Shown here piece by piece: positions 4,980 through 64,000 of a DNA stretch of 64,000 nucleotides. Position numbers and translations under genes: made by a program. The notes beneath the pieces are model-generated. The model ran no database searches. It was given only the letters and a program-made list of their open reading frames with translations, and had not been told where the DNA came from. Origin of the DNA: Phaeodactylum tricornutum CCAP 1055/1 (lineage: Eukaryota > Bacillariophyta > Bacillariophyceae > Surirellales > Neidiaceae); the NCBI RefSeq assembly GCF_000150955.2, contig NC_011682.1:765359-829358 (forward strand), written 5' to 3'. How positions within the stretch are numbered: the first letter of the stretch is position 1; the number at the start of each line of letters is the position of its first letter.

Positions 4980-5857
4980 AACCTAGAGGAGCTGCTCCGA
5001 TGTAAAAGCTAGGTGTTCGTCTTGAGCTCAGATGTCAACTTCTACCCATGTGCAGACTTGGTGCCTTCTCCTTTTCTGCTCTAGTAACATCCTGCATGAG
5101 TCGCGTGATCCGTAATATACTTGAGTCACTCCGATGTTATGTGCGCACAAGACAATACTTCTTCAAAAGAGAAACTGGAACTGTCCGTGTGTTGTTACCA
5201 GTGCCTTAGCCTTATCCATCGAAAAAGACAGGCTCTTCGTTGGCACGTTTCTGGCGAGCGGTTCGCAAATGTGTTATGCTTCGACCAACTATGGTATGGG
5301 CAAGGTTAACGTTGGTTCCGCAATATTTCCCTAAAGTAGCATCGAGGAAAAGGACACCGCCATTGGATGCATTTATACGAAGTGAAATTAGTGTGATATC
5401 TGCCCTCTTTTCACTTGCAGTTAATCATTCTTATAATATTCATTTCATGAACATTTTGCGGCGCATGTGGCAGTCGATGGAAACCTTTACAAGGAACAGG
5501 GGATCAAGTTGACAGGAATTAAATTTGTGAAATCCCGTACCACCTGTCATTCACGGTCAGCGCATTTTTCTACGTCCATCATTCCATAAGTCAACCTGAA
5601 CTGCCTAGAAAATTACTCGACATGGTATGGATACAACGAACGGTGTGATATCGAGTCTCTTCACAAGCTGACAGACATTCTTCGGAGGTCACACACCAAT
5701 CGACTTGATCGGCCATACCGTGATCAAAGCAATCCGCTTGGCATGTATCCTGGTGCACTTCAACAACGGTTCGCTTCCACGTCCGAGAGAGTTATCGATC
5801 ATAACTATATCTGAAAGATCCGAACGGCAACTGCGGGTCCTGCTCACTGCTAGCCAT
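4980..5857. other. Intergenic region, no gene recognised
   Basis: About 880 bases with only short ORFs that lack recognisable motifs. A 28-bp stretch at 5701-5728 matches 36361-36388 in inverted orientation. The homology between the two duplicated loci therefore reaches past the main block, although the sequence in between does not align. Confidence 0.5.
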
Positions 5858-47513: not shown

Positions 47514-47522
47514 ATGACAAAA

Positions 47523-47607
47523 GAGGGTTAACTTATGAGGAGTTTTTGGATAGATTTTATACATGATTGTAGGAAAGTACTACTCTGGGTTCTCCCTCCC
47601 CTTAGGG
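47523..47607 (-). repeat. Family-A subtelomeric repeat, truncated and inverted
   Basis: Reverse complement of the first 85 bases of the family-A repeat at 55819, 57177 and 59437, from the CCTAAGG head to the first GGGTTAACTTATGAG unit. The rest of the tandem part is missing. Confidence 0.85.
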
Positions 47608-48017: not shown

Positions 48018-51000
48018 TCACCATAAAATACTTCGTATGATAGCTTGTCTCACTGGACCTGTTTGAACCTTTGTAAGTATATCCGCTAGATTTGATTCTG
48101 ATGGTTCATATGCAATCTTGATCACTTTCATGGCAACATTCTCTCGTACGAAATGATACGCTATCGCGTTACTTTTCTTCTTCAACACTGATTCTGGTGC
48201 CGTAGTATTGTATACAACCGACATATTGTCACAAAGAACTTTAGCCGGACCATCAATAGGAATACCCATCATACGTAACTTGTATCGTAGACCTTGTATC
48301 ATCTCAGTAGCAATCTTTAATGCAACAAACTCACTACCAAAAGTAGACGTTTCAACTGAATTCTGACGCTTCGAGAACCACATAATCGGAGAACGATTGA
48401 TATAAATCAAAACACCTGTTCAAGAACGACGAGTAACACGGTCTCCCGCATGGTCAGCATCAACAAAAGCTATAATCTCCACCACCTTACCACGTGGTTC
48501 TGGAGCATTTGGTGGGATAGGCTCTTTAACATCACCGTAAAAATCTGTCCAATCCGCATCATCGTTAAAGCTGTTGTCAATCACCGGATAAGAATCATCA
48601 AATACCAATCGAGACTTGTGATGTGACTTCAAATATCCGAAAATATGAAAAACTGCAGCTAGATGTCCTTCACGCGGCATCGCGAGAAAAGATGAGAGCA
48701 TAGACACCTCACACATTATATCAATGCGACCAATTTCAACTGCCCATCTCAACACTCCTATCTGTGACTGGAAATAGTTAGCACGTTCCGCATCCAACAC
48801 AGGGGAAACATCGAGCTCCGGTCGATAATTTGACGACATAGGTGACGTAATCTTTGTAGATAAACGTTTTCCAACTTCATCCAAATCCTTTTCAACATTT
48901 GCAACTGCTTGTTTCACATAATTCGTGGAACTCATCGACCATCGCTGTTTCGATGGATTATCGGGTAGCGTAAAACGTCCAAGATTTGCTCCCAAATATA
49001 CCTCGGGCGTCTTAATTGATTCAGGCTTGAGTTTAAAATGCATACCGATCGAATCCAGGATCTTCTTCGGATCTGTACTGATACATAGGAAATCATTGGT
49101 ATAAATAAGCACATACTCATAGTAATTCGTACCATCGTGTTTCTGAGCTGGTCTAAGCCAAACATCTGGATCTGCAAGACAAGAGATAAAATGCAACTCC
49201 TCCATTGTCGCAGCTAAGTGAGCACGCCATGCTGCCCCACTCAACTTCAAACCATATAACGCACGAACAATAAGTGCATAACAACCTTCCATTGACTTTC
49301 CGAACTCTGGACCACATGTTGTATATACCTTTTTGTGAACTGGAGCATTCAAATATGCATTCTGCGCATCGGCACCAAGTATATCCAATGAATTCAAAGA
49401 TGCAATGAGTAAAGCAATTCGAACACTATCGCGCGAAACAACACTGGCATATGTAATCAAACTCGGCGGATCTGTAACATGTCCCCCGGCGACGAATCTG
49501 GCTTTGCGAGTAAAATCCATTTTGATATCAAATATCATGTGATATGGTATCCATGTATGAGCAACTGGTTTAGGAGCATCCTGATCGAGAATTTTAAATG
49601 CTGGCATAACATTTGTCATTTCCTTCTTGATCGCATCCGACCACAACGAAGTGTTAGTATCTCGGTCAATCTCAAGAGCTTGCTTGACCGATTTTGGCAT
49701 ACAAATACCAAACTTGTGAGTCTGTTTAAGGTATCTCGTCTTTACCGCGGAAATAATACGATCACGTTTCTGCAATATGTCTGGTGCCCACCAAGCAAAA
49801 GCTGGCTCATGAAGCAGTTTGTTAGCAACGGCATTTTCGGCGACTTCAATTGGATTCGATTCCTTCAGATCTTTAAGAGGAAACCAAGTTGTAGATCCGT
49901 CCTTCCATTGCAATAACAACACCCAGCCTTTAGTGGTTCGTCTTATGCGTTTCACACCATGCTTGTCCATATAGTACATATCGTCAGGTGCGACTGCCAA
50001 TCCATCCATCTTGTGTTCAATGATCTCATCTACTATTCGAAACCGGCGTCCTTCATCATCCACCTGCGAATATAAGTGTTCCGCAATAATATTAGCAGCA
50101 AATTCCTGCACATTACCGTCTGGGAACTGGACTTCCATAACTCTCGTATCCAAAACAGGATTGGGATGTGATTTCCCTACCAAGTTACCATTGCGATCCT
50201 TTTTACGCGCAATGACTGTTCCAGTGGTAGCAATGTCCTTGTATGGTAACACAACTTGAGCATCAAGGTATTCATCAAAGGCTTCGTGATCTAATTCGTC
50301 TGCTTGTGGCATTGACGGCTCGTCCCCTGTCGAATCATCTGAATAAGTGCAAAATACATTAACCTCTTCAGGAAACACAGGGGCAATGGCATCATCACAG
50401 TTATTATAGCTCAAAGTTGCATCAAATGAGGACTTGTCTAATTGCACCTCCCTGGAATTAAGATCAGCTGTAGAAAGTGGCGAGTAAGAAGTTCGAGATA
50501 CCACTTGACCACTTCGAACAAGTATACGCGCACACATAACATCACCAATGTCATGCGCAGGACCAAGCCACCGACCTAGATTCCGTTTGTCTACCGGAAA
50601 GTCGACTGGGTCCAAATACCATATCCAATCATACCAAGTGAATTCACATAGGTGACTGATATCCGTCGTATCACCTGACACTGCCGTGTTTGGTACATCA
50701 TTGTTCAATGCATAAATGTTATGGGCAATTGACGATCGAATCATACTTTGCAACTCCAGGCAAAAATCCCATAAATATAACGGTGCAGATGACTTTTTCA
50801 TAGCCATGTTAGTCATGCGTTTCAATGCTCTGATTGCAGTCTCGGCTTGATTTAACCATGGTGAGTAAGGTTCAATCTGTCTAGCATGAGATCCTGCCGC
50901 ACGAACCTTCCGTCTGAATTCACCCTGCACCAATTCTTTCGCGCCATCCGAAATAATTTCGGCTGGAACACCTTCTCGGTGAAACAACAAATCCAAGGTC

Positions 51001-51026
51001 TCATCGGCATTCCCTTTTGACTTCAT
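48018..51026 (-). pseudogene. Copia pol: integrase end, reverse transcriptase and RNase H, with internal TGA
   Basis: The frame opens at 51026 inside integrase (IISDGAKELVQGEFRR with the second catalytic Asp, and PYSPWLNQAETAIRALKR with the Glu). The reverse transcriptase follows: FKILDQDAPKPVAHTW, FVAGGH, SVRIALLIASLNSLDILGAD with NAYLNA, YGLKLSGAAWRAHL. Its YxDD box reads YTNDFLCIS; the Asn codon at 49097-49095 replaces the first catalytic Asp. A TGA at 48420-48418 interrupts HAGDRVTRRS before TGVLIYINRSPIMW. The RNase H then runs to 48018 with STFGSEFVALKIA and SNLADILTK. CGA to TGA would explain the stop. In this state the product would be inactive. Confidence 0.92.
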
Positions 51027-53838: not shown

Positions 53839-54487
53839 ATGAAAACCTTGTGAATGTAAGTTTCTCTCCAAAATTAGAGTCGGATTTGAAATCCGACTCT
53901 AAATTTAGAGTCGTTTTCAAAATCCGACTCTAAATCAGAGTCGTTTTCAAAATCCGACTCTAATTTTTTTCGCAAAAATAACCGTAACGGGCAACCAGAA
54001 CGCCAGCTCGGTCGCTGACATTTTAAATGTTTAACGAAAACATTGAAAATGACCAAAAGTTTTTTACTAGGGACTGACAATTTTTGCTTTTGCGGCACGC
54101 CCCTGGGAAATCCTGCGCAGAAAAGATTGGCCTGTTCTTGAAAAGTTCTAAAAGCCTAGACACTGTCGGACCAATCAAAGCACCTGGATCCTCAAGATTA
54201 CTTATGCTATAGTGAGCGCGTCACTTAGCAGAGATCATTTTACCTCCCTACTCGTCTTCGGAAGTATTCCTTCAATTGCTTTGCAAAGACTACAGGATGC
54301 AAACAAATTCACTTTTTGTTGCACCCCACGGTTCTTCAGAAAAGTTTCGATACGGTCTACATTAGACTACGAATCCAAGTTACTTAGCTTCAGGATAAGC
54401 CTTCCAGTGCTCAGGAGTGGTTTGAGTATTGCTCAGCTGGGTTTTTGAGCGTTACAACTACGTACGTTGGCGACGCCAATACGTAAC
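53839..54487. other. Start of the subtelomere
   Basis: About 650 bases including the palindromic array at 53874-53963. The remainder has only short ORFs with no motif. Confidence 0.5.
53874..53963. repeat. Three-unit palindromic tandem array
   Basis: Three units of about 30 bp, each a near-perfect inverted repeat. The first reads AGAGTCGGATTT and its complement AAATCCGACTCT around a one-base centre. The other two carry AGAGTCGTTTTC against AAAATCCGACTCT. Each unit can form a hairpin. Confidence 0.85.
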
Positions 54488-55846
54488 ATGACCGCAGTAG
54501 TGCCGCTAAATGCCCTCACAATCGGCCCTGATGCTTTCGGAGAGTCGAGTGTGGATGGAACGGTGATATCGGTCCGATCGGCAATGCGAGTCTGGAGCGC
54601 GTTAGTTTACTATATAGCTCTGGCTATTGATGTGTTGAGCGTTTGTCACGGGATATTCGCCCTAAAGAACGCGTTGAATAGTGAAGGAGGAAAGAGGAAG
54701 TACCTGCTCATTGCCGCAAGTTCCGAGTTGAGCGTCGAGATAATAAGCAGGTTGGCCCTGGTCTTCAGAAGCAGAGAGCAGCGCTACCAGAAGGGTTGGC
54801 ACAGGTCTTGGAAAGCTCTTGAACGCGGGGGGTCCGGGGAGTCCGGGGAGTCCGGGGAGTCCGGGGAGTCCGGGGAGTCCGGGGAGTCCGGGGAGTCCGG
54901 GCGGCGATCTCCCTACGACATGTTATCCGGCCTCCTAGAATTTGTATGTTGTGTGATCGGCATTGTAAGCAACTATATAGGGGGAATCATAACCGTTATG
55001 GCTCCTATGCATTGGATGTTTGCCGGGGGTGAGGTGACTAATGTCGGAGGAGTCCAAGCTTCACACCCATTGATATTGGAAGCCCTCTCAGCATTCATAA
55101 CTCTTTCAGTCGTGGTTTTTGCTGCACTGGAGGAAGTTGAAAATGCGGCCTGGCTCTCGGCGTTGGGCGGACTGGTAACCGGAGCGGCCCTGTTGCTCGT
55201 GCACACGATTTTCGAGATAAGCCTAACGAACGTCCAGAAATCCTCATACTGGAAAGCGTACTTCTTCTTCGCGACACTCTACCTATACTCAGGATTGGCG
55301 CACGTATTCCTAGGTGGTCCGAATTTAAGCTCGTTGATAAGCGGTATTGCCGGCTTTACAGATGCTTTAGGTACAATATCCTACATGGTGTACGGGTTCA
55401 CGGTATTCCACTCTTCGGAAAACCCGATGGACCTACTGAAATATATGGGTGGATCGGGTCTATGGGGACTACCAAGTATACTGTTTGATGAAGAAGACTT
55501 CTCGAGTTGTCGTTCGAGAGTCCAAGACTATAGCTGCACTTGGGTCACGATCAACTCGAAAGAGTTGTGGCACGAAGTAAAGTGGTGCGAGTTGTCCCCT
55601 ACAGCGCTCGGAGCGCCTGACCGTGAGGCCCTGAGCGCCGGAGGACCGCCGTGGAGCTCGGGTACGCTCCGCTCGCTGCCACGCGGAAAATGCACTCCAA
55701 GGAGGGTGGGCGCGGCAGCTGTCGCTATAACGACCCGATCAATGCCTCCCGGCATCTCTTGCACCTCTCAGGTCGGGTCACCCTCAACCGACCACTTGGT
55801 CACGCTGCCAAGCTTATTCCCTAAGGGGAGGGAGAACCCAGAGTAG
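54488..55846 (+). CDS. Multi-pass membrane protein of unknown function, 3' end provided by a repeat
   Basis: The ATG at 54488 starts a 452-codon frame, clearly more GC-rich than the surrounding subtelomere. Five to seven hydrophobic segments are visible: WSALVYYIALAIDVLSV, LLEFVCCVIGIVSNYIGG, LSAFITLSVVVFAALEE, ALGGLVTGAALLLVHTIF, AYFFFATLYLYSGLAHVF and LISGIAGFTDALGTISYM. A cytosolic-looking linker holds the Glu-Ser-Gly tandem repeat. After about residue 335 the sequence becomes Pro/Ser/Arg-rich and looks non-native. The last residues (PKGRENPE) and the stop come from the family-A head at 55819. The original 3' end is therefore probably lost. I do not recognise the family. The body of the ORF is likely real coding sequence; expression is uncertain. 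Confidence 0.6.
   Translation: MTAVVPLNALTIGPDAFGESSVDGTVISVRSAMRVWSALVYYIALAIDVLSVCHGIFALKNALNSEGGKRKYLLIAASSELSVEIISRLALVFRSREQRYQKGWHRSWKALERGGSGESGESGESGESGESGESGESGRRSPYDMLSGLLEFVCCVIGIVSNYIGGIITVMAPMHWMFAGGEVTNVGGVQASHPLILEALSAFITLSVVVFAALEEVENAAWLSALGGLVTGAALLLVHTIFEISLTNVQKSSYWKAYFFFATLYLYSGLAHVFLGGPNLSSLISGIAGFTDALGTISYMVYGFTVFHSSENPMDLLKYMGGSGLWGLPSILFDEEDFSSCRSRVQDYSCTWVTINSKELWHEVKWCELSPTALGAPDREALSAGGPPWSSGTLRSLPRGKCTPRRVGAAAVAITTRSMPPGISCTSQVGSPSTDHLVTLPSLFPKGRENPE
54832..54900 (+). repeat. 9-bp in-frame minisatellite encoding Gly-Glu-Ser
   Basis: About 7.7 perfect copies of GTCCGGGGA in frame with the membrane-protein ORF, giving a (GES)n linker. Perfect copies suggest recent slippage. 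Confidence 0.92.
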
Positions 55847-56055
55847 TACTTTCCTACAATGATGTATAAAATCTATCTAACAACTCATCATAAGTTAACC
55901 CTCTGACTTCACAGTGCGACATATAAATATTCCCTCTGAGTTCACAGTGCGACATATAAGTATTCCCTCCCAGTTCACTGTCCGATGTTGTAAGTAATTC
56001 CTCTGGGTTCAGTGTCCAACAACATAAGTAAACCCTCTTGGTTAACCCGGAGAAC
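55819..56055 (+). repeat. Family-A foldback minisatellite, copy A1
   Basis: A 237-bp element. The head CCTAAGGGGAGGGAGAACCC and AGAGTAG is the inverted complement of the CTCTGGGTTC motif found in the later tandem units. A unique part follows, then about five 31-34-bp units (for example CCTCTGAGTTCACAGTGCGA) of rising divergence, ending GGTTAACCCGGAGAACA. The head supplies the stop codon of the upstream ORF. Confidence 0.9.
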
Positions 56056-56452
56056 AGGAACTTCTTGAGTGTGGGGCAAAGGGGCACCCAATTCTGCGAC
56101 ATTTGATGACGTCAATATCGTGAACCAAGAGTAGTGCGCTCGACGAATCTTTTCTGCTTCCAATCTTCAACGCAGCAGACCTTCGCTTTGTCACCACCAC
56201 CACATCATTTTGACTGTTGATTCTGACAAGTGCTCATCCATTTGCCTCAATTGCCTTGAACAACTAACAGTCAGGAAACATCCAAATTCTTGCAAAGTAC
56301 CAATAACAGTAATAGGATCAACAAAGTTAAGCGGATCTATCTGTAGTCAGTGGATCTCATTTTGCATATTCCTGTCCAATTCCCCTACCACAAGCCGCAA
56401 GATAGCTTGTCAAGTATGAAAAGCAGAAATTGGTTAAATATTTTCAGCCTTT
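56056..56452 (+). repeat. Duplicated subtelomeric block D (copy 1)
   Basis: Nearly identical to 60106-60493. It ends TTTTCAGCCT and then continues TTAAAAAAAA, whereas copy 2 continues with the family-B head. No gene is supported inside. Confidence 0.85.
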
Positions 56453-56818
56453 AAAAAAAATCGCTAAGTATTTCTTTATGAATTCTATGTAATTTTTTGA
56501 ATGACTATTTCATATCCTTCCTCTTGATACTTAGGATCCGGAATGAGGGGAATCTTCCCAGTCCGAGTTTAAACCGACCTGCTTGCTGGTTTGAAAAAAC
56601 GTCTCATTTTCACTTGCATCATGTCAACTGGTGCCGAATGGTTGCAGCAAAGGAGATCTTTCTGCAAGGAATACCAGTGACTTTCAGCTATTGCGACCAA
56701 CACTAAATGTCATGTTCACATTGATTATGCACCCTAGTAGTATCTGTTCATTCATTTGAAAGGAAAGATCAAAGGTGCAATCAGAGTGCCGTCGTCTAGC
56801 TTTTTTCTGCGAACTCTC
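56453..56818. other. Unique A/T-rich spacer
   Basis: About 370 bases with no recognisable gene or repeat. Confidence 0.4.
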
Positions 56819-57180
56819 GTAGCGACGTCGAAGCGAGCTAGTTTTTTGCGGTAGTCGAGAAGTGGCGAGAGTGAAGTTAGGCAAGGGCCTGGGCTGATCC
56901 CGTTCTCTGGACCGGGATTTTTTTGGAGCGAAAATGGTTGATTGGGGCTATTTTTCCGCCCTTGGAAAGGCTGTTTGAGAAACTTTGTCGGGCTTTCGTG
57001 TCGTCGAAGAGCAGTCTTACCCGTGGAGTGTTGTTGGTAGCGACGTCGAAGCGAGCTAGTTTTTTGAGGTAGTCAAGGAGTGGCGAGAGTGAAGTTAGGC
57101 AAGGGCCTGGGCTGATCCGGTTCTCTGGACCGGGATTTTTTTGGAGCGAAAATGGTTGATTGGGGCTATTTTTCCGCCCT
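56819..57180 (+). repeat. Two 144-bp direct repeats (E) with a 74-bp spacer
   Basis: 56819-56962 and 57037-57180 are nearly identical (period 218). Both begin GTAGCGACGTCGAAG and end TTTTTCCGCCCT. The first is followed by TGGAAAGG, the second by the family-A body (AAGGGGAGG). Confidence 0.9.
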
Positions 57181-57414
57181 AAGGGGAGGGAGAACCCAGA
57201 GTAGTACTTTCCTACAATGATGTATAAAATCTATCTAAAAACTCCTCATAAGTTAACCCTCTGAGTTCACAGTGCGACATATAAATATTCCCTCTGAGTT
57301 CACAGTGCGACATATAAGTATTCCCTCCCAGTTCACTGTCCGATGTTGTAAGTAATTCCTCTGGGTTCAGTGTCCAACAACATAAGTAAACCCTCTTGGT
57401 TAACCCGGAGAACA
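57177..57414 (+). repeat. Family-A foldback minisatellite, copy A2
   Basis: A 238-bp copy nearly identical to A1 and A3, joined at its left to the second E repeat at CCCT and at its right to block F. Confidence 0.9.
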
Positions 57415-57845
57415 GTACTTCTTTTCTAAAGCAATAAAATCTTTTTCAAATCCTTACTAATGTAAAGTGACGCTGTGAAAACACCCTACCAAAACACCTG
57501 CCTAATCAAAATTTCTGGCTGGCAGTGACGGTGTATGATGCAACATCCAAAACCTCACGGTCCGTCCAACATTTGGAAATTTCTAATTTCACAGTCATGC
57601 AACCAAAACAACTTCAACATTCAAATGATAGGCACACCCATTAGGAAGAGGTCTAGCAAGCAACTCCAACAAGCTGCCACGGACAAGGCATTAATGTAGT
57701 CGGTGCAGCAATTGTCCGCTTTGGAGGATTTCTGGCCTTTGCAAATGGCAAAGTGGGAAAATGGTACCGGAGTGGAAGATCCCAGGCGCAATATCTTCGA
57801 CGCGATTTCAAGGAGCAGGGGGAAGCGGCACAGAGGGAACAGGAG
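57415..57845 (+). repeat. Duplicated subtelomeric block F (copy 1)
   Basis: Nearly identical to 59674-60105, from CTTCTTTTCTAAAG to GGCACAGAGGGAACAGGA. Together with A2/A3 to the left it forms one duplicated unit. Small ORFs inside are not conserved between copies. Confidence 0.85.
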
Positions 57846-58018
57846 TTCCGCAAAAGAAAGTTTGCGACAGGGTTTAAATGATGTTGAACAAAATCGGAAT
57901 AAGGCTGGGATAAAGCTTAACGCGAGCAGTGTGCGCCAACCGACAAGTTTACAAATACACTACGAACGCTACCACGCTACAAAATGGAGACACTGCTTGC
58001 ACTTCAGGAACTAAATCA
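57846..58018. other. Spacer between blocks F and G
   Basis: About 170 bases; a weak resemblance to 61400-61560 suggests block G may extend here in degraded form. Confidence 0.35.
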
Positions 58019-58461
58019 ACTAGTCTTTTTAAAGTTAGCATACTGTTACACATTTTTTTGAGTGTTTGTAGTATCTATAGCTGTTCTACACACATGTTGG
58101 TTGTATTTTGATATCTGTTGTATCCTGTACTATTTTTATTGTGGATTCTATTTGGTTTTACTTGTCCCCCACACTGCCTGCATCTGCAACTCTCTTGGTC
58201 CCTCCCATTATGGCTAGGGAAATGGAAAGCGTTGTTTGCGACGGATAGCAGCCAAGCAAGGTTTCCTCCGGTCACAGATAGAGTGACCCAATACAACTGA
58301 TATTTTGCCAACACCAGCTTTGGTCAATGAAACACTGGCAAGCCCCTTGCAACCGGAAATGATAACTACCAATACTTCCCGCAATTTTCATTCAATTCCA
58401 ACTTTGGTTCCCTCCGTCACGATTGCAGCAAGGCATTTTCGATGGTAAAAAAAAATTGCGG
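58019..58461 (+). repeat. Duplicated subtelomeric block G (copy 1)
   Basis: Matches 61600-62050 at lower identity, with shared stretches such as TATCTATAGCTG, ACACATGTTGGTTG, AGCCAAGCAAGGTTTCC and GCAGCAAGGCATTTTC. It is an older duplication than D or F. It ends at ATTGCGGCCT, where family B1 begins. Confidence 0.75.
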
Positions 58462-58740
58462 CCTAAGGGCAGGAAGATCCCGGAGAAGCAAGGGTATACC
58501 TGGCTGAATAAAATTCATGCAAAAACTATTTCTAAGTAATTGCACCGGGATCTTCAACATGCCATGTCCTTTGCGTAAATAATTGCACTGGGATCTTCAA
58601 CTTCGTTTGTCTTTTGCGTAGGTAAATGCACCGGGATCTTCAACACAGTTTGTCTTTTTAATAAGTAATGGCTCTGGGATCTTCAACATGGTTTGTCTCT
58701 TGTTTAAGGAATTCTCTTGGATCATCGATAAGTTTACTTT
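58462..58740 (+). repeat. Family-B foldback minisatellite, copy B1
   Basis: The head CCTAAGGGCAGGAAGATCCC is followed by about five units of 45-48 bp, each with CCGGGATCTTCAAC or TCTGGGATCTTCAAC. The head word GAAGATCCC is the reverse complement of the unit word GGGATCTTC. Units diverge towards the right end. Confidence 0.88.
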
Positions 58741-59436
58741 TCCACCTAACAAATTCATCCTAAATCCATGTCAGACCAGCACTGACCATATGGAGTCTTT
58801 CTCCAACTACCGCAACTAGAGCTACCGCTGCCATACATCCTGGTATGACTGCAAAGGCGTCACCTTCGTTAAGCACAGACGCCGCCCAATACGGCTTTCT
58901 AGCAATCCCTGCGAGTACCGTAGCATCACGCGGATCCAATAAGATGCAGTAGGAAACCCTTGGGACCCCGTACGTGGAAGTTCTCCAAAGAGACGACCAG
59001 TCCCCATCTACACAACTTCTAGAGGAAAACGAACTCTACAGGAATTGTCGTAGCCGCACGGTAGTGGAACTGTTTCCTTGGGCTGCGTGCCTGTTTGCAA
59101 GGCCAAAATTTAATCGTTGATTTCACTGGATTCATTCCTCTGCCCCCCTCCCCAGGCAAGACCCTCTATAGTCGCTCCGCCGCCCAATTCAGGATCTTGA
59201 AGGCATTGTCCGGGACAAGGACGACTTACTCCGCACCAATTATCAACCTGCTCAATACGACCAAAGCCAGAATGGAGCTGCCACTACAAGGTTCTAGGAC
59301 CTACTGGTATTTGCCACGCGAGTGCTTTGTCACAGATAAAAAGGCTCGAAATTTGCAGTCGGGTGGTTGTTTGGTTGATTTGCGTGATCTTTTACGAAAT
59401 GCTGTTCTAAAAAAAAACCAAACGAGAGACGCCATT
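58741..59436. other. Unique subtelomeric spacer
   Basis: About 700 bases without a supported gene. A frame at 59095-59463 has no ATG start, but like the ORF at 54488 it ends in PKGRENPE supplied by the next family-A head. Confidence 0.45.
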
Positions 59437-59673
59437 CCTAAGGGGAGGGAGAACCCAGAGTAGTACTTTCCTACAATGATGTATAAAATCTATCTAAAAA
59501 CTCCTCATAAGTTAACCCTCTGAGTTCACAGTGCGACATATAAATATTCCCTCTGAGTTCACAGTGCGACATATAAGTATTCCCTCCCAGTTCACTGTCC
59601 GATGTTGTAAGTAATTCCTCTGGGTTCAGTGTCCAACAACATAAGTAAACCCTCTTGGTTAACCCGGAGAACA
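59437..59673 (+). repeat. Family-A foldback minisatellite, copy A3
   Basis: A 237-bp copy, nearly identical to A2 and sharing its right flank (block F). Confidence 0.9.
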
Positions 59674-60105
59674 ACACTTCTTTTCTAAAGCAATAAAATC
59701 TTTTTCATATCCTTACTAATGTAAAGTGACGCTGTGAAAACACCCTACCGAAACACCCGCCTAATCAAAATTTCTGGCTGGCAGTGACGGTGTATGATGC
59801 AATATCCAAAACCTCATGGTCCGTCCAACATTTGGAAATTTCTAATTTTCACAGTCATGCAACCAAAACAACTTCAACATTCAAATGATAGGCACACCCA
59901 TTAGGAAGAGGTCTAGCAAGCAACTCCAACAAGCTGCCACGGACAAGGCATTAATGTAGTCGGTGCAGCAATTGTCCGCTTTGGAGGATTTCTGGCCTTT
60001 GCACATGGCAAAGTGGGAAAACCGTACCGGAGTGGAAAGTTACCAGGCGCAATATCTTTGACGCGATTTCAAGGAGCAGGGGGAAGCGGCACAGAGGGAA
60101 CAGGA
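59674..60105 (+). repeat. Duplicated subtelomeric block F (copy 2)
   Basis: Counterpart of 57415-57845. It passes directly into block D copy 2 at the word GAACAGGA, the same word that joins A1 to block D copy 1. Confidence 0.85.
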
Positions 60106-60493
60106 TCTTCTTGAGTGTGGGGCAGAGGGGCACCCAATTCTGCGACATTCGATGACGTCAATATCGTGAACCAAGAGTAGTGCGCTCGACGAATCTTTTC
60201 TGCTTCCAATCTTCAACGCAGCAGACCTTCGCTTTGTCACCACCACCACATCATTTTGACTGTTGATTCTGACAAGTGCTCATCCATTTGCCTCAATTGC
60301 CTTGAACAACTAATAGTCAGGAAACATCCAAATTCTTGCAAAGTGCCAATAACAGTAATAGGATCAACAAAGTTAAGCGGATCTATCTGTAGTCAGTGGA
60401 TCTCATTTTGCATATTCCTGTCCAATTCCCCTACCACAAGCTGCAAGATAGCTTGTCAAGTATGAAAAGCAGAAATTGGTTAAATATTTTCAG
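60106..60493 (+). repeat. Duplicated subtelomeric block D (copy 2)
   Basis: Counterpart of 56056-56452, ending at TTTTCAG before the family-B head. Confidence 0.85.
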
Positions 60494-60810
60494 CCTAAGG
60501 GCAGGAAGATCCCAGAGAAGTAGGGGTATACCTAGCTGCATACAATTAATCCAAAAACTATTTCTAAGTAATTGCTCCGGGATCTTCAAGTTGGTTTGTC
60601 TTTTGCGTAGGTAACTGCTCCGGGATCTTCAAGTTGGTTTGTCTTTTGCGTAAGTAACTGCTCCGGGATCTTCAAGTTGGTTTGTCTTTTGCGTAGGTAA
60701 CTGCTCCGGGATCTTCAACATAGTTTGTCTCATGATTAAGTAATTGCTCTGGGATCTTCATCATGGTTTGTCTCTTGTCTAAGTAATTCTATTGGATTGG
60801 TGATAAATCA
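60494..60810 (+). repeat. Family-B foldback minisatellite, copy B2
   Basis: The CCTAAGGGCAGGAAGATCCC head and about six 46-bp units. The first three or four are almost identical (TGCTCCGGGATCTTCAAG, then TTGGTTTGTCTTTTGCGTA) and the later ones diverge. That gradient suggests recent expansion from the head side. Confidence 0.9.
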
Positions 60811-60960
60811 CCTAAGGAAAAGGAGATCCCTGTGTACTAAACTTATACATGAATGCATATTTTATCTTTACACAGGGATTCATTTTTTACTTAACGCATC
60901 CCACTGGGATCCAAAAAACTCCCACTGAGATTCAAAAACGGTGAAAGTTACTCCACAGGG
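60811..60960 (+). repeat. Family-C foldback repeat
   Basis: Starts CCTAAGGAAAAGGAGATCCC, then TGTGTA. Forty-five bases later TACACAGGGATTC is the near-complement of the head. Related words follow (CACTGGGATCC, CACTGAGATTC, CACAGGGAT). It has the same architecture as A and B with a shorter head and fewer units, and directly abuts B2. Confidence 0.7.
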
Positions 60961-61599
60961 ATAACTAACTTGCTGACGTCTGGCGAACAACTTTCACAGT
61001 CGGTCGTTCTTCCGTAAGTCGCGTCTGCGTTTTGTGTTGCTTACGTACAACTGTGAACAGTCAGTATAGGCCAAAATGGACTTGCCCTTTATACAGCTTC
61101 TAGCTAGTAGAGAATTTTTCTTTCTTCAAATTTTACAACAGAAAACACTCATGGCACCCTGTTTGCATCTACAATGTAGGAAGCGAACAGCATTGACCGC
61201 GGATGTTTTTTTGCGGATAGGGTAGGCTAACACCAGATGAGACTGGTGATCATGTAGTGTGGTGATTTGGAGTGTAATTCGGAGCGTTTTACGAAATCTG
61301 GTGCTTATTTCGCGACGGACCCGCCCGCTCTTGCGTTGCTCCCCGGAATGGGGAAGACAATGTCAAACTGTTCTACAAGAAAATCCAGGAGCAGGTGAAA
61401 GCTGCGCACCGGGAGTGGGATATTGGAAGTGGTTCGAAAAAGCGCTAAAGCAGGGATTAGCGGCCTCGTAGGACAATCAAGAAAGAGAGCAAACGAAACA
61501 AGCAAGGGTCAATTAAGATGCAAACGACGTCCCGAATCGAGCAATACGAAACAGTTGCGCTGGCTCTGTTGACAGACTGGGCTCTTTGGGAACATTAAC
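60961..61599. other. Subtelomeric spacer
   Basis: About 640 bases with short ORFs only, none with recognisable motifs. Confidence 0.4.
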
Positions 61600-62050
61600 A
61601 ACTAGTCCTTTTCAAAATTAGAATTTGTTACGCTTTCTTTGTTTGCTTGTATCTATAGCTGCTCTATACACATGTTGGTTGCATTTTGTTTGATGATTAT
61701 TTTATCTTCTATTTCTATTTGGTGTTACTTGTTCAGCCCCATATACTGACTGCATTTGCAACTTTCTTCATCACTTGCATCATGGGTAGGGAAAGGGTCA
61801 TGCGCGACGGACAACAGCACTCACAGGCTACAATAGCCAAGCAAGGTTTCCTTCCGTCACAGATAGAGTGACCCAATTCGACTGCTTTTTGGCCAAATGA
61901 AACACTGACAAGCCCCTTGCTACCGGAAATGATACCTACCAACACTTCCCGCAATTTTCATTTGTCCAATGCGGCTTCAGCTTCAATTCCAACTTCGGTT
62001 CTCTCCGTCACAATTGCAGCAAGGCATTTTCCATTGTCCATAATATTGCG
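61600..62050 (+). repeat. Duplicated subtelomeric block G (copy 2)
   Basis: Diverged counterpart of 58019-58461. It reads ATTGCGGCATTT at the place where copy 1 carries the family-B1 insertion. Confidence 0.75.
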
Positions 62051-63722
62051 GCATTTGTCGGCCCCAAATGACATGCTTTTGTTGTGCATTGTGACAGCAT
62101 AGTGGGTAACTGCGGCCAACAAAAGGTTTTATTTGATCCAGGTCGACGGATGCTGTTTGGCCGTTGTCGTTGTTGTCGTCGAAGTCGTCGTTGCTGTTCT
62201 CGTTGTCATTGCAGACAGCACCAACACAGCCAATACCAATCAACGCCAAAACAGATGCAGGCAATGGCTTCGCAGCTGGAGCAAGTTGACTATGGTTCCC
62301 GTACTTGGTATCTTTAGGACGCGGTTTCTGTTATATTTTCATCTTCTGTTCTGACCATTGCAACTGCGGCACAGCCTAGCCTCTCCAGCAGTTTCCATGA
62401 AAAAGCTTGCGGGCAAAACGGCTTGTTTGTGATTTTGTTAGAATTGTGTGTGTAGCACACGAGAAACTTCGGCATGTCACCAGATGACGCAGACGGTGCG
62501 TGTGTCATCCGTCGCTACTTTTCTTTGTCTGTGCATGGAAGCCACTTGTTGGTTCTAGTAACATGTAAAGGATAACTACTCTAAGAAATACTGCGGGAGC
62601 TCTTTTCCCACTTCTAGTTGTATTTTTTGGAAAAGAGCATCTTGTAGGGCACTAACAGGCCAACAATTGTTCTAGGCATAGCATACTTATATTAGCTTAT
62701 GAGACAAACTTTGTTCATTCTTGATGAGCAGACCGCTTTATTTGCGGTGTTTTGGCCTGATTTCCGCAAATAACCGCAAATAAGGTTTCAAAATCACCAC
62801 ATACTAAAGTACTAAGTTAACTGCAACTTAGCTTCATTCACGTAGGGCTGGTACAAAATATATAACTCGAACCCAAAGTGGCCCACAATCCTACTGCTGT
62901 ATTTGGCATCACAACATAGCTAGTATGATCTTTGAAAGACTTTTTGTGCTTTGTTCAATACCAATGTTGTTGCCTGAGTATTGGAATCATTACACCAATG
63001 CAAAAATGATTTTTCAGACAAGCCCCACCCTTGAATTTGGATTGAAGATCACTGAGCATGACAAGAATCCATTTTGAGTCTTGACTTACTGTGGTTAGGG
63101 TTTTGTTGATAGGTGGATGGACTATTTGTGATGACGTCATGTGTGATGTCATATAGTGTGATGATGAGGACACTGTGGTGTCCATTGTGATGATGCATGG
63201 ATTTAGGATAGGAATTTATGATAATGAGTGCCTCCTGTGAGGCTCTCAGATTACTAGAAATACCTTTTTGATTGTGATCTCCCCTTTGTTGATCTATTCA
63301 ACAAGCTGCAGCCAAGGGATCTGATCAATCCCTATCTCAGCTTGTCAGATTAACAGTCTTGCTGTTCATACAGCCAATTGAGTAAAAATCAGCCCAGGAC
63401 TTGCAAACCTGTGGCTGTTGTGTTGAAACTTTAAAGTGTGAGGTGACCCTGTCACCAGAATTAATTCATTGAATTGAGAGTCTCAGACCCAGTGAAAGGG
63501 GAGACTAAAGGCCTTGTGTGTGTGCAGTGTTGTTTGAGGAACATCTGCAAAATTTGAGTTGAATTGAACTCATATTGATTGAGAAAAGACTGTTTGGCTC
63601 ACCATTGTCAGGTGGCAACAGTTGAAAGAGAGGGGGGTAAAATTGATTTTTTTCTTGCCCTTGTTTGTTGAAAAGGAAACAAGCCTGATTGAGCCTGAGT
63701 GTTCTGTTTTGGTATTTGGCAT
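62051..63722. other. Distal subtelomere without genes
   Basis: About 1.7 kb, A/T-rich. It has an imperfect GTCGTT-rich tract near 62160-62215 and a hairpin at 62738-62783 (TTATTTGCGGT against ACCGCAAATAA). Beyond 63200 it is TG-rich and low in complexity. No ORF is supported. Confidence 0.5.
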
Positions 63723-63753
63723 CCCTAAGGGCAGGAAGATCCCAGAGAAGCAG
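63723..63753 (+). repeat. Family-B head fused to the telomere (B3)
   Basis: CCCTAAGGGCAGGAAGATCC, then CAGAGAAGCAGGG, matches the first 30 bases of B2 and then runs straight into TTAGGG repeats with no tandem units. Confidence 0.9.
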
Positions 63754-64000
63754 GGTTAGGGTTAGGGTTAGGGTTAGGGTTAGGGTTAGGGTTAGGGTTA
63801 GGGTTAGGGTTAGGGTTAGGGTTAGGGTTAGGGTTAGGGTTAGGGTTAGGGTTAGGGTTAGGGTTAGGGTTAGGGTTAGGGTTAGGGTTAGGGTTAGGGT
63901 TAGGGTTAGGGTTAGGGTTAGGGTTAGGGTTAGGGTTAGGGTTAGGGTTAGGGTTAGGGTTAGGGTTAGGGTTAGGGTTAGGGTTAGGGTTAGGGTTAGG
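63752..64000 (+). repeat. Telomere, TTAGGG repeats
   Basis: About 41 uninterrupted copies of TTAGGG reaching the window end, G-rich strand running 3' outward, as at a chromosome right end. I see no variant repeats. Confidence 0.98.

Follow-up and report, generated by a model that had tools for sequence, protein, structure and literature searches.

CCTAAGG heads as sharp proximal ends of polar, CC-joined subtelomeric modules in Phaeodactylum tricornutum

The stretch of 64,000 nucleotides analysed here (hereafter the window; C14:765359-829358, contigs being designated by a C and a number) comes from the diatom Phaeodactylum tricornutum CCAP 1055/1 and runs at its right end into a TTAGGG array (63752..64000, +), which direct reading and Tandem Repeats Finder (TRF) identify as the chromosome end. 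AACCCT is the telomere repeat stated for P. tricornutum in the excerpted text of PMC9266582. The last 8.2 kb before this telomere carry, by direct reading, seven copies of a short conserved “head”: three of type A (55820, 57178 and 59437), three of type B (58462, 60494 and 63724) and one of type C (60811). An earlier reading of the sequence (the original prediction) had proposed a CCTAAGG head common to three types of subtelomeric foldback minisatellite, and this common head is confirmed by direct reading in the window. TRF detects A arrays with 33-bp units and B arrays with 43-bp units.

Each head marks the sharp centromere-proximal boundary of a longer module running towards the telomere, and the arrays form just the first part of these modules, whose size can reach 1-5 kb. 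In the window all modules of the terminal region lie on the + strand. The first A module (55820..57177) comprises head and units (55820-56056) and then a body, is attached to an outward open reading frame (ORF) and is ended by the next A head. The second A module (57178..58461) is ended by a B head, the first B module (58462..59436) by an A head, the third A module (59437..60493) by a B head, the second B module of 317 bp (60494..60810) by the C head, and the C module (60811..63723) by a last B head, a stub of ~32 nt (63724..63755) directly capped by telomere repeats. An A-type head fragment of 85 bp (47522..47606, -) lies 16 kb inside and faces away from the telomere. Several of these units recur elsewhere: the second A module shows 98.6% identity over 1285 aligned columns to A modules on C16 and C19 that lead into a helicase gene, and the composite of 317-bp B module and C module was found behind four distinct left flanks (C5, C14, C16 and C23).

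The genome searched comprises 27,450,724 bases in 88 contigs. Allowing up to two mismatches, the head pattern CCTAAGGNNAGGNAGANCCC occurs at 151 places, compared with 9 for the reversed control pattern, which bears out the prediction of one modular family with many copies. Homology searches gave at least 55 A, 36 B and at least 45 C places, with 40 of 78 candidates scored for A and 40 of 68 for C. Our local set of ~219 kb, which includes the window, contains 110 heads, a part of those in the genome: 34 of type A, 32 of type B, nine of type D, six of type E, 23 of types C and F together, five 18-nt stubs and one unclassified. At least six head types exist, C and F being related to each other. 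One viral contig matches the head pattern, about the number expected by chance. Among titles and abstracts in the literature, we found no description of these heads or of a head with CC targeting.

The predicted enrichment at chromosome ends holds beyond the window: 91 of 95 chromosomal heads face the nearer chromosome end, 15 further heads on unplaced contigs being left out of this count. The four exceptions are C11:21266, two heads at C12:422-423 kb and the 85-bp fragment of the window. The two mid-chromosome heads on C12 (C12:421393-424412) adjoin a short interstitial GGGTTAGGGTTAGGG, and this place may mark a fusion, an assembly join or a former chromosome end.

Far past the array, A copies still agree in sequence even where their left flanks differ. 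Colinearity extends over 2.4-3.2 kb at ~99% identity in the A modules of C16, C19 and C3, and over 3.5-4.3 kb at 98-99.7% in the B modules of C19 and C62. Between A and B modules there is no blastn match in the first 2.4-2.7 kb, and then one common gene follows; when the A module of C16 is compared with three B modules, the nucleotide identity of this gene is 80-88%, and the shorter A module of C19 gives ~71%. The refuting case raised with the original prediction, a head inside a long gene or transposon, came true in part, in that the head bounds a longer module and A and B types lead into a helicase gene. C-type modules carry a different outward ORF. At C62:5193-6341 an outward ORF of 383 codons in a C-type module is cut off by an A head; a 263-codon frame on C16, which overlaps this ORF by eye, has no Pfam match. 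An outward ORF at C3:3400-4956, likewise cut off by an A head, resembles by eye a Crypton-type tyrosine recombinase; the 500-residue part searched has no Pfam or NCBIfam match.

The left boundary of the modules is fixed to the nucleotide. Among the 20-nt left flanks of the 110 heads, 102 are distinct, and 92 remain after fuzzy collapse. In these 92 the bases are nearly random as far as position -3, A or T stands at -2 in 72, and then the near-invariant CCTAAGG begins. For 69 of the 110 junctions an unoccupied paralogous site was found, that is, the left flank elsewhere in the local set without a head. These sites read CC at the join in 59 of 69 cases. In a quality-filtered independent set, from which 13 junctions were omitted for the quality of the reference and 10 for a shared left flank, CC occurs in 41 of 46 (background CC frequency 0.0489, or 4.9%; binomial P 2e-48). 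The base after the join is C in 0 of 69 unoccupied sites. As read from these sequences, heads are joined to a CC target behind the final C of a run, mostly with A or T next. Two joins of the window illustrate this: the unoccupied paralogue of the join at 57178, at window 56960, reads CCGCCC^TTGG, and that of the join at 60494, at window 56448, reads TTTTCAGCC^TTTAA. No fewer than four target nucleotides have received heads of more than one type: C3:1085 (B) with C62:4590 (A), C8:983938 (A) with C17:1154 (D), C19:687160 (F) with C26:439793 (A), and a nucleotide close to position 227 of the A array, which took both A and B heads.

The distal half of the empty site was not found downstream, in the sequence examined, at 53 of the 69 junctions, and the joins therefore look one-sided. 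Nothing convincing in the way of a target duplication or a restored target site was seen among the 69, and ordinary insertion with target duplication was rejected on this count of 53 together with our reading of the other 16, given below. The defined insertion ends expected by the original prediction exist on one side: a sharp proximal end is present and a second, inverted end was not found. Inverted pairs of at least 30 nt were not found in window 54000-63760.

Distal ends are variable. Modules are often ended early by another head or by telomere repeats. Telomere repeats stand on 22 of the 27 contig ends examined, at 21 different junctions, the only shared one being that of the near-identical unplaced contigs C45 and C53, which are probably redundant assembly or haplotypes. 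Three B heads (C14R, C18L and C12R) are capped by telomere repeats within 35 nt. In five heads the sequence stops after 18 nt, at their own CCC or beside it, where a B or F head continues. These 18-nt stubs look like template switching at CC, which argues against the joining of pre-cut double-stranded fragments.

The gene of the A, B and, by position, F modules reads outward and is predicted to encode a zinc-finger helicase of superfamily 2 (SF2), weakly RecQ-like. The genome has 16 helicase matches: 13 are chromosomal, every one of them at an end and in outward orientation, and three are on the unplaced contigs C45, C53 and C62. The longest open frame (C24:356-4615, 1420 codons) continues stop-free into a head stub and shows by eye finger-like Cys/His pairs, a Walker A motif, a DECH box and zinc knuckles. 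Pfam Helicase_C is above the cut-off (E 1.6e-7 to 1.8e-7), DEAD and RecQ_Zn_bind are below it, and zf-BED passes it in the copy at C19:5328-6614 (E 1.5e-7) and in the C45 copy. With the helicase part, the best NCBIfam matches are cas3_core (E 4e-6) and then recQ (E 0.001), both far below cut-off, and the sole match in PDB is DHX58 (E 0.009). None of the viral contigs matched any of six helicase peptide patterns.

Eleven of the 16 helicase matches terminate at a head or telomere. Among the others, C62 stops where its contig does, the reading of C19:676010 and C10 stopped short of an end, and the match at C19:10541 is the front portion of the same helicase copy as C19:8817. With the gene taken to start where the open frame or the match begins, nine of 11 gene starts lie 2.13-2.35 kb past a head of type A, B or F, distances being taken from positions, with the head-gene DNA read only in its first part at C24, partly at C19R and not at C18; type F at C24 and C18 rests on similarity. 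For the helicase genes of C45 and C53 the nearest known head is ~3.5 kb away. Pairs with dS above 0.3 have a ratio of nonsynonymous to synonymous substitution rates (dN/dS) of 0.21-0.45, two close pairs one of 0.77-0.79, and the gene is under purifying selection.

The original prediction had each head carry the inverted complement of the word repeated behind it, so that it could pair with any unit. The inverted word is present in the head, but no A or B array of the window has its exact complement more than once; the remaining units differ from it by one to a few bases. Median complementarity of a head with units of its own type is 10 for A, 10 for B, 10.5 for D, 16 for E, 9 for C and 8 for F; the 95% values for shuffled heads are 7-8, exceeded by five of the six types and just reached by F. 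The complementarity is not exclusive to the own type: A heads score equally and D heads higher on E units, C heads equally on F units, and F heads equally on E units. The word AACCCGGAGAAC, which follows the A array, is oriented like the head word and is not its inverse. We infer that head and unit words could be oppositely oriented binding sites, perhaps for the zinc-finger protein of the modules.

Our analysis points to the heads as proximal, site-defined ends of telomere-directed modules that would replace lost chromosome ends by CC-primed, templated and helicase-assisted copying, a reading that we consider plausible and that falls just short of an even chance. A cut or eroded chromosome end whose outward strand finishes in CC, at the last C of a run, would serve as primer; synthesis would begin opposite the GG at the head boundary, and the module would be copied outward. 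The copy would extend over a variable distance before a telomerase cap or another module ends it. The SF2 helicase with BED/C2H2 zinc fingers predicted for A and B modules may bind the head and unit words and open the head, and the opened head would let copying from a DNA template start in a manner like break-induced replication. The fixed start, variable length, mostly one-sided joins, CC primer end and stubs together argue for templated synthesis begun at the head. Priming, the template and the role of the helicase are steps that we infer; a DNA template is preferred, with modest confidence, because RNA could serve only as an inward transcript, antisense to the gene, and because RVT_1 is not found at the ends. 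A stronger version of this scenario, which we put forward more tentatively, sees a one-ended, telomere-terminated mobile element, with the head as its single end and the telomere as the other, that targets CC^W (W, A or T) and replaces chromosome ends by means of its own zinc-finger helicase.

Several observations weigh against the scenario of helicase-assisted copying. No enzyme is linked to the joining. The helicase alone does not explain why the join always follows the last C, a rule that looks like nick specificity or like three-base pairing to a GGG end. Its RecQ assignment is weak in sequence terms, and the C24 copy has no zinc-finger family above the Pfam cut-off. C-type modules and C3 hold other ORFs. 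CC is missing in 10 of 69 empty sites (5 of 46 after filtering), of which some, not all, look like diverged references. At 16 of the 69 junctions a downstream match of the empty-site sequence exists; read without a formal test, we judge these matches to be own-body or distant copies. The least clear of the 16 is C23:506470, where a stretch of 103 bp on the left of a B head has a headless second copy (96%) at 507990, 1.5 kb downstream, and which is either a local repeat or a two-sided event. Some distal breaks also show neither head nor telomere: the A copy at C12:900513 matches others for just ~105 bp, the internal fragment at 47522-47606 ends after 85 bp, and the C3 helicase gene breaks near 5370 without a head. 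Last, a Copia-type RVT_2 ORF (window 48423-51026, -; E 5e-14, RVT_2 having been searched in ORFs of the window) lies ~13 kb from the window telomere and could act in trans, as the first of the alternatives would have it. Other Copia-like fragments were seen by eye in the end regions of C8 and C16 and on C70.

This first alternative is terminal retrotransposition, in which an inward RNA ending in ...CCUUAGG-3' is reverse transcribed from a chromosomal 3' end in CC, the head being the RNA 3' end and the enzyme being HeT-A- or Penelope-like, or of Copia type in trans. It would account for the sharp proximal end, the variable distal truncation, the polar head-to-tail arrays, the CC primer match, the very short stubs with their apparent template switching, and the internal 85-bp copy, which starts exactly at the head like a truncated complementary DNA. 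In Drosophila, HeT-A, TART and TAHRE are arranged head to tail in polar arrays, exact at the proximal end and truncated to varying extents at the distal one. Endonuclease-deficient Penelope-like elements, with truncated ends facing the telomere and capped by it, were reportedly described by Gladyshev and Arkhipova in 2007, with stramenopiles among the hosts. As in HeT-A and the Penelope-like elements, the diatom copies are polar, distally truncated and at chromosome ends. In contrast to HeT-A, TART and TAHRE, however, the diatom ends lack RVT_1, the gene reads outward and telomerase-type repeats are present. The long A/B gene is antisense to the RNA required. RVT_1 (non-LTR/Penelope type; LTR, long terminal repeat) was found at E<=0.001 only at internal places on C7 and C13 and, unlike what Penelope-like elements would lead one to expect, at no chromosome end of this assembly. 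A non-systematic inspection of the listed joins by eye shows no evident poly(A) tract. We regard retrotransposition as rather unlikely.

Distinctly less probable is a site-specific recombinase or transposase that joins the head to CC, the other end being the telomere, so that the exchange is one-sided and only polar products survive. A join that always follows the last C (with C next in 0 of 69) fits an enzyme cut site, and the ORF at C3:3400-4956 is Crypton-like by eye; this ORF, however, is seen at one place and lacks the family matches named above, and end joining of DNA fragments hardly yields 18-nt stubs.

Ordinary subtelomere shuffling, with passive satellites moved between ends by homologous recombination and break-induced replication, is quite improbable. 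Segments common to several ends at 95-99.7% identity are what it predicts, the 317-bp B and C composite behind four left flanks could come from exchange inside B, and some distal breaks have no head. But homology exchange gives no fixed left boundary, whereas the 92 flanks stop at one nucleotide, mostly at CC, and four or more target nucleotides are common to different head types.

The original prediction had also asked for the copies to be folded in silico, with a non-autonomous foldback transposon in mind. Among 30 copies, five per type, a z-score against shuffles below -1.5 was obtained by one of five A, none of five B, four of five C, three of five D, all five E and two of five F copies (ranges -1.84 to +0.47 for A and -0.47 to +0.69 for B). 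The inverted word in head and units and the E, C and D folds speak for such a transposon, but we give it hardly any credence: nine of ten A and B copies fold no better than shuffles, neither an inverted second end nor a convincing restored target was found, the repeats are the mere first part of longer modules, and mostly one-sided joins contradict it. Drosophila foldback elements combine internal tandem repeats and inverted words with two inverted ends and a target duplication; the diatom heads and units share the former two features, and the latter two were not seen in the modules.

Subtelomeric helicase genes recur in fungi and yeasts, where their role is unsettled. The yeast Y' elements are subtelomeric, carry a helicase gene and spread between ends; the diatom element is likewise subtelomeric with a helicase gene, and we know of no two-nucleotide target or sharp head in Y'. 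Fungal telomere-linked helicase (TLH) regions (UTASa/UTASb in Ustilago, TLHcr in Fusarium) contain, according to the excerpts consulted, a multicopy subtelomeric RecQ-like helicase gene with truncated copies and repeats nearby (PMC10532341, PMC12857005). The diatom modules agree with these descriptions, as far as excerpted, in their multicopy subtelomeric helicase gene with truncated copies and repeats. They differ in that the diatom gene has BED/C2H2 fingers and its C24 frame no match (at E<=5) to OrsD, a domain of some fungal members, and in the CCTAAGG boundary joined to CC targets, of which nothing was noticed in the excerpted TLH descriptions. Since helicase regions with repeats are known from fungi, and polar truncated arrays from HeT-A and Penelope-like elements, the diatom modules are best filed with known kinds. 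What appears new is the head with its CC targeting, and there is a real chance of a new class.

If the one-ended element exists, it would be a class of transposable element outside the cut-and-paste, rolling-circle and retro types. The junctions, with their fixed head, target of two bases and joins that are mostly one-sided, preserve a record of the spread of such regions. As Phaeodactylum is genetically tractable, it is directly testable whether a selfish module coding for a helicase heals or hijacks chromosome ends, which also bears on the rebuilding of P. tricornutum chromosome ends, relevant for synthetic chromosomes.

Some minor features of the window and of the heads complete the picture. 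No known RNA family, such as the hammerhead, reaches its gathering threshold within the window. A 144-bp direct duplication (97%) lies at 56819-57180, its second copy stopping at the second A head. The outward ORF of 459 codons that runs into the first A head (54467-55846, +), with a 9-bp tandem repeat at 54826-54901, has probably lost its 3' end to that head. Finally, the inward strand of the heads shows a pyrimidine tract followed by TTAG|G, like a 3' splice site.

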